DNA of 64,000 nucleotides from Salinisphaeraceae bacterium (GTDB taxonomy: Bacteria > Pseudomonadota > Gammaproteobacteria > Nevskiales > Salinisphaeraceae). Under the pieces are notes generated by a model. It worked only from the letters and a program-made list of their open reading frames with translations. It searched no databases and was not told the origin of the DNA. Each line of letters opens with the position of its first letter. Position 1 is the stretch's first letter. Location of the stretch: positions 1 through 64,000 of the forward strand of contig NYTH01000037.1 in assembly GCA_002683405.1 (NCBI GenBank), read 5' to 3'. The translations under genes and the position numbers were made by a program. Positions 32,091 to 59,445 of this stretch are shown here, in pieces.

Positions 32091-32140
32091 CGGCTTGGCC
32101 TGCCCGGCGGCGGGCGGTATAGTTCGGCTTCGGCCCGCAG

Positions 32141-32368
32141 TCCCGTGGGAGAGTGTCGCAACCGGCTCGTCAAGGCCCGGTTTGCGGCCGCCGAAGGCGC
32201 AAATCCGCCCGGAATCGCTCAGGTAACACGGACCACGGGAACGGAAAAGCAGGACCATTCGTTGCTTTCGGGGCCGACTCTGGAGAGTCCTCGCCGCGCG
32301 CGAGGCACCGACGGGGCAAGGGCGCAACCCGCTTGCGCATAATCTCTCAGGTGTCCGGACAGAGGGGC
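32141..32368 (+). promoter_or_regulatory. Tandem glycine riboswitch upstream of gcvT
   Basis: Two consecutive glycine aptamers. The first is closed by CCCGTGG (32142-32148) and CCACGGG (32233-32239) and shows GGGAGAGTG, CCGCCGAAGG.GCAAATC and GCTCAGGTAAC. The second (about 32270-32368) shows CTCTGGAGAGTCC, CACCGACGGGGCAA and TCTCAGGTGTCCGGACAGAGG. These are the class consensus elements of the gcvT RNA. It ends about 55 bases before gcvT, whose ribosome site could be exposed when glycine is bound. The type usually switches on glycine cleavage when glycine is plentiful. Confidence 0.93.
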
Positions 32369-32422
32369 GGTGAATCAGGCCGGGTGCCTGAGCCGCAGCC
32401 TTTGCTTCAAACCGGATAAGCC

Positions 32423-43465: not shown

Positions 43466-43903
43466 TCAGGTTTCCAGCCAGAAGCTCACGGGGCCATCGT
43501 TGACCAGCGCCACCTGCATGTCGGCGCCGAAGCGCCCGGTCTGCACGTTCTTCAGGCGCTGGCCGCACTGATCCACCAGCCGGTCGAACAGGGCGCTGGC
43601 CAGGGGCGGGGGCGCCGCCCTGGCAAAGCTGGGCCGCATGCCCTTGCGCGTGTCCGCGGCCAGCGTGAACTGCGGCACCAGCAGCAGGCCGCCGCCGGTG
43701 TCCACCACCGAGCGGTTCATGCGGCCGGCCTCGTCGGCAAATACGCGGTAGCCCAGCAGCCGCTCGGCCAGACGATCGGCGTCGGCCTCGCCGTCGCCCT
43801 CGCAAACACCCACCAGCACCATCAGACCCGGGCCGATCCGGCCGACGGTCTCGTCATTGATGTCCACCTGGGCGCGGGTGGCGCGTTGTAGGAATGCAAT
43901 CAT
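43466..43903 (-). CDS. dtd: D-aminoacyl-tRNA deacylase
   Basis: 145 residues from ATG 43903 (MIAFLQRATRAQV, the standard N-terminus). It removes D-amino acids (and glycine) from mischarged tRNA. Motifs: LLLVPQFTLAADTRKGMRPSF with the catalytic-site Thr/Gln region and the cross-subunit NDGPVSFWLE at the C-terminus. Separated by 85 bases from hisB on the same strand. Its start region borders the palindrome upstream of the predicted sponge RNA. Confidence 0.96.
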   Translation of the reverse strand: MIAFLQRATRAQVDINDETVGRIGPGLMVLVGVCEGDGEADADRLAERLLGYRVFADEAGRMNRSVVDTGGGLLLVPQFTLAADTRKGMRPSFARAAPPPLASALFDRLVDQCGQRLKNVQTGRFGADMQVALVNDGPVSFWLET

Positions 43904-43923
43904 GCGGTGGTAGGGCCGTTGGC

Positions 43924-43939
43924 GTAGGAAATATCCTAC
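43924..43939. promoter_or_regulatory. GacA/UvrY-box-like palindrome
   Basis: GTAGGAAATATCCTAC has perfect 6-base arms around 4 bases. Read as cGTAGG-N6-CCTACA it differs from the GacA box TGTAAG-N6-CTTACA at a few positions only. It lies about 40 bases upstream of the predicted sRNA start and 20 bases upstream of dtd on the other strand. Family knowledge: GacA (UvrY/LetA/VarA) boxes precede CsrB/RsmZ-type genes. The assignment is inference. Confidence 0.5.
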
Positions 43940-43971
43940 AAGCCACGTCGGCACCGGCCTATCGCCAGGGT

Positions 43972-44164
43972 CACGGGGCTGTGTGAGGATGACTTCACGC
44001 AGCCAAGGACGTGATGTAAGGGACGACATCCGGCTGCGAGGAGGCGTACCAGGGATGGGTGCCAACGAATTCGCTAGGGACTCGCGATTCAGCGGCCAGC
44101 CTCCGGAAAAGCCTAGCACGGCTCTGACTGGCCCGGTAACCGTTCGGTTGCCGGGTTTTCTTTT
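43972..44164 (+). ncRNA. Predicted CsrB/RsmZ-like sponge RNA (CsrA/RsmA sequestering)
   Basis: This stretch has seven GGA motifs in 122 bases (43986-44107), four of the AGGGA/AAGGA type. Three AGGGA copies fall in hairpin loops: GATGT-loop-ACATC at 44013-44030; GGC..ACC-loop-GGTGCC at 44043-44063; GAAT.CGC-loop-GCGATTC at 44067-44090. An intrinsic terminator closes it at 44132-44164. A TATCGC sequence at 43960 is a possible -10, so I place the 5' end near 43972. Such layout is typical of RNAs that titrate CsrA/RsmA. No coding sequence is seen. The csrA gene is not in the window. Confidence 0.72.
44132..44164 (+). terminator. Rho-independent terminator of the predicted sponge RNA
   Basis: Stem CCCGGTAACC/GGTTGCCGGG (10 pairs, one G-U) with loop GTTC, then TTTTCTTTT. 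Strong, and only read sensibly on the plus strand. It would insulate the downstream TRAP gene. Confidence 0.9.
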
Positions 44165-44369
44165 GCCTGCATCTCGCACCCGGCCCGCCGTGACTGGACT
44201 TGCCGCCCGCATTTGCGCAGGCTGACGCGGCCTGCGGCGCGGCGCCATTTCAATACCAGCCAATACGCGCACCGCCCGCTTCGGCACGATACCAAGTCGT
44301 GTGAATGGCCGAGGACTCGCGTGCTCATCTTCCGCGAGTATCCGGCTTCAGTTGATCAGGGGAAGCTTC
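44165..44369. other. Leader of the TRAP solute-binding gene
   Basis: About 200 bases with no recognisable gene or repeat. The region must hold the promoter of the DctP-type gene; the ribosome site is AGGGGAAG just before ATG 44370. I see no clear -35/-10 pair. Confidence 0.3.
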
Positions 44370-45479
44370 ATGAAACGTCGTGACGTAATACTGGGGCTGG
44401 GCGCCGGGACAGCGCTCACTGCCTGCGGACAGCCGGGCAGCGCGCCGGCCGTGCAGACCAGCCGGTCGAAAACCTTCGAGTGGAAGATGGTGACGACCTG
44501 GCCCAAGAATTTTCCGGGCCTGGGCACGGCAGCGGAGTATCTGGCCGAGTCCATCACCCAGGCCTCGGGCGGGCGCCTGAAGGTGCGCGTGTACGGGGCC
44601 GGTGAGCGGGTGCCGGCGCTGGAAGTGTTCGACGCCGTATCCCGCGGCGCGGCAGAAATGGGCCACGGCGCGGCCTACTACTGGAAGGGCAAGGCGCCGG
44701 CGGCGCCGTTCTTCACCGCCATCCCCTTCGGTCTGACGTCCTGGGAAATGAACGGCTGGCTGTATTTCGGCGGCGGGCTCGAGCTGTGGCGCGAGCTGTA
44801 CGCGCCGTTCAACCTCATGCCCTTCGAGGCCGGCAATACCGGCACGCAGATGGGCGGCTGGTTTCGCCAGCCCGTGAACAGCCTGGCCGATCTGCAGGGG
44901 CTGAAGATGCGCATTCCCGGTCTGGGCGGCGAGGTGATGAAGGAAATCGGCGTCACCACCGTCAATATCCCGGGCAACGAGCTGTTCACCTCGCTGCAGA
45001 CCGGCGCCATCGACGCCACGGAGTGGGTGTCGGCCTATAACGATCTGGCCTTCGGCCTGTACAAGGCCGCCAAGTACTACTACTACCCGGGCTGGCACGA
45101 GCCGGGGCCCACGCTCGAGGCCATCGTCAACATGGACCGCTGGCGGGAACTGCCGGAAGATCTGCAGGCCGTGGTGCGAACTTGTTGCCAGGCGGCGGGG
45201 TCTCGGATGATGGCGGAGTACGCGGCGCGCAATCAGCGGGCCCTGAAGACGCTCACCGACGAGCACGGGGTGCAGGTCAAGGCCTTCCCGGATGAAGTCA
45301 TCAATGCGCTGGCCGCGGCCACCGGCCGGGTGCTGGCGCGGATTACCGGCGAGGACGAGATGGCGGCGAAAATCTACGACAGCTATCGTGGGTATCGCGA
45401 GCAGGTGTCGCAATCCACGGCCATTCTTGAGCATGCCTATCTGAATGCCCGCGCGACCGCCGATAACAAGGGAACCTGA
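44370..45479 (+). CDS. TRAP transporter solute-binding protein (DctP/TakP type)
   Basis: 369 residues from ATG 44370 with AGGGGAAG upstream. The N-terminus MKRRDVILGLGAGTALTAC has a twin Arg and a lipobox-like LTAC, so it may be Tat-exported and/or lipid-anchored. The mature part has DctP hallmarks: TWPKNFPGLGTAAEYLAESI, LQGLKMRIPGLGGEVMKEIGVTTV and FTSLQTGAIDATEW; the style matches the TakP alpha-keto-acid binders. No dctQ or dctM membrane gene lies beside it, so its transporter is encoded elsewhere or it serves as a sensor. Confidence 0.88.
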   Translation: MKRRDVILGLGAGTALTACGQPGSAPAVQTSRSKTFEWKMVTTWPKNFPGLGTAAEYLAESITQASGGRLKVRVYGAGERVPALEVFDAVSRGAAEMGHGAAYYWKGKAPAAPFFTAIPFGLTSWEMNGWLYFGGGLELWRELYAPFNLMPFEAGNTGTQMGGWFRQPVNSLADLQGLKMRIPGLGGEVMKEIGVTTVNIPGNELFTSLQTGAIDATEWVSAYNDLAFGLYKAAKYYYYPGWHEPGPTLEAIVNMDRWRELPEDLQAVVRTCCQAAGSRMMAEYAARNQRALKTLTDEHGVQVKAFPDEVINALAAATGRVLARITGEDEMAAKIYDSYRGYREQVSQSTAILEHAYLNARATADNKGT

Positions 45480-58854: not shown

Positions 58855-59445
58855 CTATGCCGACGCGGCTTGGCGTTTGGTCTTAGCGATAGAAAAATCT
58901 TTAGTTGCTTTCTTTTTTGTTTTTGCATGGTGATTAGCTTCAGCGTTCGTCCGGAGTTCCTCTCGCACTTCCATCAGTAGAATTCCCAGCATGTTCTTCC
59001 CCTTCCCATTTACCTCGCCCCAGGTACGATTAACAGCACTGTTGGTTTTAGCAGTTTCCACCAGTCTTGCATCTCCGGTCGACAAGAGCAGTTCTCTTAG
59101 ATCTTCGTGCTGAGTAAATTTTGCGCGGAGCACGTCAAGCATTCTTTCAAATTTAATATTCGACCAATTCGGTACGATATCCCACGTGTAGAGGCCGTGT
59201 GCTGCCATTGCTACCAATGATGGGCTCGGCGCGCTAAGTATCCACTCACGAACAACCTCTTTTCTAGCTTTGCCAGCCTGATAAGCATGTTCTGAAGTAG
59301 GAAACTTCCTACCCCCAAACACTATTTCTCGACGGTAAAGGTTGCTGAATGCGCCATAAGGCTTTTCGTTGGCGCGGTAAAAGCCAATATCTTCGGCTAC
59401 GGTCAAAGTGGATTGCTTTCTGAGTTTCTGAGGCTGGCATGTCAT
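58855..59445 (-). CDS. NADAR family N-glycosidase (YbiA-like, DUF1768)
   Basis: 196 residues. FYRANEKPYGAFSNLYRREI, TSEHAYQAGKA and RTWGEVNGKGKNMLGILLMEVREEL are the YbiA/RibX/NADAR signature. The family cleaves N-glycosidic bonds of ADP-ribose-like or phosphoribosyl compounds; YbiA acts on riboflavin pathway intermediates, and some members reverse ADP-ribosylation in toxin-antitoxin systems. A basic, Lys-rich tail of about 35 residues follows. Its start overlaps the regulator by 4 bases, and it ends 26 bases before SIS-HAD. Confidence 0.92.
   Translation of the reverse strand: MTCQPQKLRKQSTLTVAEDIGFYRANEKPYGAFSNLYRREIVFGGRKFPTSEHAYQAGKARKEVVREWILSAPSPSLVAMAAHGLYTWDIVPNWSNIKFERMLDVLRAKFTQHEDLRELLLSTGDARLVETAKTNSAVNRTWGEVNGKGKNMLGILLMEVREELRTNAEANHHAKTKKKATKDFSIAKTKRQAASA

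Follow-up and report, generated by a model that had tools for sequence, protein, structure and literature searches.

A predicted CsrA-sequestering small RNA divergent from dtd in a Salinisphaeraceae bacterium and its positional counterparts in other gammaproteobacteria

Predicted elements in the dtd-DctP intergenic region

The window analysed here is a stretch of 64,000 nucleotides from a Salinisphaeraceae bacterium. The dtd gene (43466–43903, minus strand) encodes a D-aminoacyl-tRNA deacylase (TIGR00256, 184 bits; PF02580, 177 bits). The gap between dtd and the gene for the TRAP transporter solute-binding protein DctP (44370–45479, plus strand; PF03480, 194 bits) is non-coding and holds a palindrome, a GGA-rich stretch and an intrinsic terminator. 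A preliminary description of the region had proposed a CsrB/RsmZ-like sponge RNA at this place, and all the elements that it named are present in the sequence. The GGA/AGGGA content, the fold, the terminator and the synteny point to a small RNA on the plus strand (about 43997–44163), divergent from dtd and with the DctP gene as the next gene downstream. Elsewhere in the window, a tandem glycine riboswitch is found at 32136–32372 (plus strand), whose two aptamers score 54.5 and 53.9 bits.

The palindrome GTAGGAAATATCCTAC lies at 43924–43939, exactly where it was first reported, and is not assigned to a strand. Together with its flanks (43923–43940) it reads CGTAGGAAATATCCTACA, which agrees at 11 of 12 positions with the TGTAGG-N6-CCTACA found at the same place in relatives and at 9 of 12 with the textbook GacA/UvrY box TGTAAG-N6-CTTACA. 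This 18-bp palindrome, which precedes the predicted promoter and lies 20 nt ahead of the dtd start codon, is probably a lineage variant of the GacA/UvrY-type box. The pattern GTAGG-N6-CCTAC is present at five sites in the 3.7-Mb genome and a reversed control pattern also at five, so that the palindrome alone proves nothing, its position being what matters, and we rejected its count as evidence. A second copy, GTAGGAAACTTCCTAC, at 59297–59312 of the window is not followed by a GGA-rich RNA and is probably due to chance.

The best-scoring −10 element after the box is a predicted extended −10, TGTGAGGAT (43982–43990, plus strand), whose hexamer GAGGAT (43985–43990) is weak and starts 45 nt after the palindrome. 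A spacing of 43–46 nt is also observed at five sponge promoters of relatives (loci L040, L068, L080, L090 and L121) and at four other boxes of the window's own genome, and it is 65–71 nt, i.e. about two helical turns more, in Ectothiorhodospira, Thioalkalivibrio denitrificans and locus L075. Because the extended −10 lies at this conserved distance from the box, the RNA probably starts near 43997 and extends to about 44163 (about 167 nt, six GGA motifs). The start and length suggested earlier (about 43972 and 190 nt) are revised accordingly on the basis of promoter spacing. With this start, the first GGA (43987) falls within the predicted −10 element and is therefore probably part of the promoter rather than of the RNA.

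GGA motifs, predicted fold and terminator

GGA motifs start at 43987, 44007, 44021, 44040, 44053, 44078 and 44105, i.e. seven in 121 nt where seven in 122 bases had been announced, and AGGGA is found at 44019, 44051 and 44076. At least seven A(N)GGA/AGGA motifs are present in only 0.05% of the 122-nt windows along the plus strand of the 64 kb, and three AGGGA in 0.1%. When the RNA body (43997–44129) was shuffled with conservation of dinucleotides, four ARGGA were reached in 0.06% and three AGGGA in 0.2% of the shuffles. Six plain GGA were reached in 15%, which is not significant. The signal thus resides in the CsrA-type context of the motifs and not in GGA itself.

In sampled structures, the GG of the three AGGGA sites is predicted to be in a hairpin loop with probabilities of 0.89, 0.62 and 0.51, as had been proposed for these sites. 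The first hairpin (44012–44031, plus strand) has the structure GAUGU-AAGGGACG-ACAUC, with AGGGA at 44019–44023 in its loop and a local folding energy of −3.6 kcal/mol. The second (44043–44064, plus strand; about −8.8 kcal/mol) would expose AGGGA at 44051–44055, and the third (44067–44090, plus strand; −6.0 kcal/mol), GAAU(U)CGC-UAGGGACU-CGCGAUUC, AGGGA at 44076–44080. For the remaining three GGA of the predicted RNA this probability is about 0, those at 44007 and 44040 being predicted as paired. The predicted fold therefore has the GGA loops on which the sponge proposal was made to depend, with six or seven A(N)GGA/AGGGA motifs in total. The intrinsic terminator (44130–44164, plus strand; −20.8 kcal/mol) consists of a GC-rich stem with a 4-nt loop (44130–44157) followed by TTTTCTTTT. 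Terminator and T-run are real; the stem, previously described as a perfect 10-pair one, contains one G-U pair within its 10-pair core, so that "perfect" was slightly generous. The region 43972–44164 folds better than its shuffles (z −2.5), and the fold of the shorter region 43996–44164 is unexceptional (z −1.3).

Csr and Gac genes in the genome

A single csrA gene, the presence of which had been named as decisive for a sponge, was found in the genome (contig C15), with an NCBIfam equivalog match over the cut-off and the canonical lysC-csrA-tRNA-Ser gene order. A gacA/uvrY ortholog scores 282.5 bits, above the equivalog cut-off of 280 bits, and is followed downstream by a uracil-DNA-glycosylase-like gene and uvrC. 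An 888-aa GacS/BarA-like hybrid kinase is encoded next to a cysM-like gene, a neighbourhood that we take to be significant by analogy with Pseudomonas; this kinase is GacS-like and below the cut-off of the BarA model (402 versus 890 bits). With csrA, gacA and a GacS-like kinase in the same genome, the system for a sponge to serve is present.

The association was also considered across genomes. In 16 other genomes of the same family, no UvrY-family match was above the cut-off (the best reached 190 bits, versus 282.5 bits here); the best matches showed about 41% identity or less, with no uvrC match in their 1.5-kb flanks. These 16 genomes have neither TGTARG-N6-CYTACA nor a GGA-rich RNA upstream of dtd. 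A loss of the pathway thus becomes traceable in the sampled family, where gacA, box and RNA are lacking together. Among the 29 dtd-bearing genomes scanned, a UvrY score of at least 235 bits was found in 9 of 15 genomes with the RNA versus 1 of 14 without it. Of the 15 genomes with the RNA, five give no UvrY match at E ≤ 1e-60 and a further one reaches only 207 bits. The genomes that fall short are mainly those of Ectothiorhodospira, whose ortholog may be divergent, and small or incomplete MAGs.

Counterparts beside dtd in other bacteria

A search of the DNA of 60 relatives gave no homologue of the window RNA and no significant nucleotide similarity. Its alignment with the RNAs of eight relatives is possible only at the GGA motifs and the terminator, the remainder being too diverged. 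The case for common descent is thus made from position, box, spacing and architecture, which these RNAs share. When 80 dtd loci of named genomes (825 kb) were scanned for a GGA-rich stretch with a terminator, 11 loci were obtained, at 173–1459 nt upstream of dtd, and in all 11 the stretch is on the strand divergent from dtd. A separate scan of the same loci that allowed one mismatch to TGTAGG-N6-CCTACA (at least 11/12) gave 11 boxes, all upstream of dtd or of a pip-dtd pair and 36–1161 nt from dtd, although the zone within 1.2 kb upstream of dtd represents 11% of the DNA searched. Ten of these 11 boxes are followed by 6–15 A(N)GGA motifs per 260 nt, pointing away from dtd, versus 1.4 per 240 nt on average in the background. 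Genome-wide, the exact TGTAGG-N6-CCTACA is rare, with 18 sites in 12 genomes versus two for the control; four of the genomes have no exact box other than the one beside dtd.

Several genomes have a gene for proline iminopeptidase (pip) between box and dtd, so that the RNA faces away from a pip-dtd unit; the window and L068, L080, L064 and L040 have dtd itself as the divergent neighbour of the RNA. The window has the same architecture as this group, i.e. box, GGA-rich RNA and terminator, divergent from dtd or pip-dtd. Among the hosts are Ectothiorhodospira haloalkaliphila, E. marina, E. shaposhnikovii and T. denitrificans, one MAG each of Natronospira and Sedimenticola, MAGs of Candidatus Thiodiazotropha and several further gammaproteobacteria. 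T. denitrificans (L131) and the ES_M_Gamma_082 genome (L121) each have a second box-driven GGA-rich RNA.

Two subgroups of these RNAs have elements of their own before the terminator. A CTTCAATCACC-like element, immediately ahead of it, is conserved in L052, L054, L075, L080, L087, L091 and L131 (from Ectothiorhodospira, Thioalkalivibrio, Natronospira and a Chromatiales MAG) and is absent from the window. L039, L040, L064, L071 and L090 have in common (G/A)CCAACCAAGCC-GACGAC, complementary in most of them to a GTCGTC near the 5′ end of the RNA. E. haloalkaliphila also has a pair of identical TGTAGGGATTTTCCTACA boxes separated by about 1 kb (L124/L130; G069:C4:1133755 and 1134776), neither followed by a GGA-rich RNA.

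None of these RNAs is recognized by Rfam. No Csr/Rsm model matched the window region, at gathering or at E ≤ 10, nor any of 18 loci of relatives, of which 10 were scanned at gathering and 8 at E ≤ 1. The CsrB, CsrC, RsmX, RsmY and PrrB/RsmZ covariance models, proposed at the outset as a check, thus match neither the region nor its positional counterparts. We found no paper linking a Csr RNA to dtd. Some of the relatives' RNAs have possibly been predicted earlier, the first prediction of many Csr-type RNAs being reportedly that of Kulkarni et al. in 2006.

Interpretation and alternatives

We propose, with a probability of roughly 0.88, that the region encodes a Gac-activated, CsrA-sequestering small RNA of about 167 nt and of CsrB/RsmZ type. 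The features of this class that are accessible to computation were all found, namely terminator, AGGGA in loops, box, csrA and Gac genes. The first proposal of a CsrB/RsmZ-like sponge is strengthened by the dtd synteny, the Gac genes and the joint absence in the 16 family relatives. The sequence elements, the csrA, gacA and gacS-like genes, the conservation beside dtd and the box-to-promoter spacing are supported by computation; from them we infer transcription, its start site, the binding of GacA and CsrA and a physiological effect. In the established Gac/Csr logic, phosphorylated GacA activates a sponge RNA that titrates CsrA (PMC4682653, PMC8523701). Phosphorylated GacA would here bind the palindrome at 43924–43939 and activate the promoter, whose extended −10 lies some 45 bp further downstream. 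Transcription would proceed to the terminator at 44130–44164, and the three AGGGA hairpin loops and further GGA sites of the RNA would bind CsrA dimers, so that CsrA-repressed mRNAs would be released.

The RNA might be a CsrA sponge whose palindrome is bound by a response regulator of the NarL/FixJ type (LuxR-type HTH) other than GacA. Many GerE-domain regulators are encoded in the genome, and a symmetric change (A to G, T to C) distinguishes the box from TGTAAG-N6-CTTACA. Moreover, four further GTAGG/TGTARG boxes of the same genome (L117/L007, C38:2412; L004/L118, C31:582; L115/L003, C23:1392; L116, C33:1885) are followed by a −10-like element at 43–46 nt and, at 102–125 nt, by the start codon of a small secreted or uncharacterised protein, so that another regulator could use this box. 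Two of these four genes encode similar secreted, Gly/Leu/Pro-rich low-complexity products with no Pfam match, and GacA, or a related regulator, could act on all four directly. However, family members that lack gacA have neither box nor RNA, high UvrY scores go together with the RNA in other genomes, and published descriptions of GacA boxes accept TGTAGG-type variants, such as TGTAGGGGAATTCTTACA upstream of csrA1 in Marinomonas (PMC8523701). Another regulator is thus an unlikely explanation.

Still less probable is that the palindrome is an operator of dtd and that the GGA-rich stretch is either just the 5′ leader of TRAP or purine-rich by chance. The box is indeed only 20 nt from the dtd start codon and Rfam gives no match, but towards dtd no promoter-like −10 is found at the conserved spacing, and a strong terminator separates the GGA-rich stretch from the TRAP gene. 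In addition, the box of the relatives precedes a divergent GGA-rich, terminator-ended RNA even when pip is located between box and dtd. That the stretch encodes a small protein is highly improbable, since the open frame that exists (80 aa, 43983–44225, GTG start) has no Pfam match, crosses the terminator and would begin within the predicted −10.

The functional kind, a CsrA sponge turned on by the stress-sensing Gac switch, is well known; this RNA and its counterparts beside dtd in many sulphur and soda-lake bacteria, which we read as a syntenic group, are absent from Rfam. We advance more tentatively, at somewhat less than even odds, a broader view in which a hitherto undescribed group of Gac-activated sponges beside (pip-)dtd, with TGTAGG-N6-CCTACA as a lineage-specific box, spans Ectothiorhodospira, Thioalkalivibrio, Natronospira, Candidatus Thiodiazotropha, Sedimenticola and further gammaproteobacteria, and in which several protein genes of the window's own genome, including the two for secreted low-complexity products, are directly driven by the same box-promoter unit. 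If true, GacA would control mRNAs directly in this organism, in addition to the sponge. Since the sequence of Csr sponge RNAs is not conserved, they are difficult to detect; gene position and box variant could identify them where all Rfam models fail. This would open a concrete way to study Gac/Csr control in gammaproteobacteria of soda lakes and in sulphur-oxidising and phototrophic ones.

Comparison with known systems

The predicted CsrB/CsrC of Marinomonas (PMC8523701) and CsrR1/CsrR2 of Alcanivorax (PMC9788540) were likewise found through box or structure and have A(N)GGA motifs and a terminator. They lie at other genomic places and have transcript support. With RsmZ, RsmY and RsmX of Pseudomonas, the window RNA shares its size class, GGA in predicted hairpin loops, a terminator, an upstream palindromic GacA box and, presumably, activation by GacA. 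It is located beside dtd and not in the fdxA-rsmZ order of Pseudomonas (PMC9788540). Its box resembles TGTAGG-N6-CCTACA and not TGTAAG-N6-CTTACA, and it matches no Rfam model.

CsrB and CsrC of E. coli and other gammaproteobacteria have in common with it the sponge logic, a UvrY-type box and a terminator. The window RNA is far shorter than these RNAs, with six GGA motifs versus about 20. The boxes of E. coli csrB are far upstream, centred at −183/−182 (PMC4682653), whereas that of the window is at about −65 from the predicted start. Its three well-presented loops suggest a capacity of one to a few CsrA dimers, which would make it more similar to the Rsm RNAs than to CsrB of E. coli.
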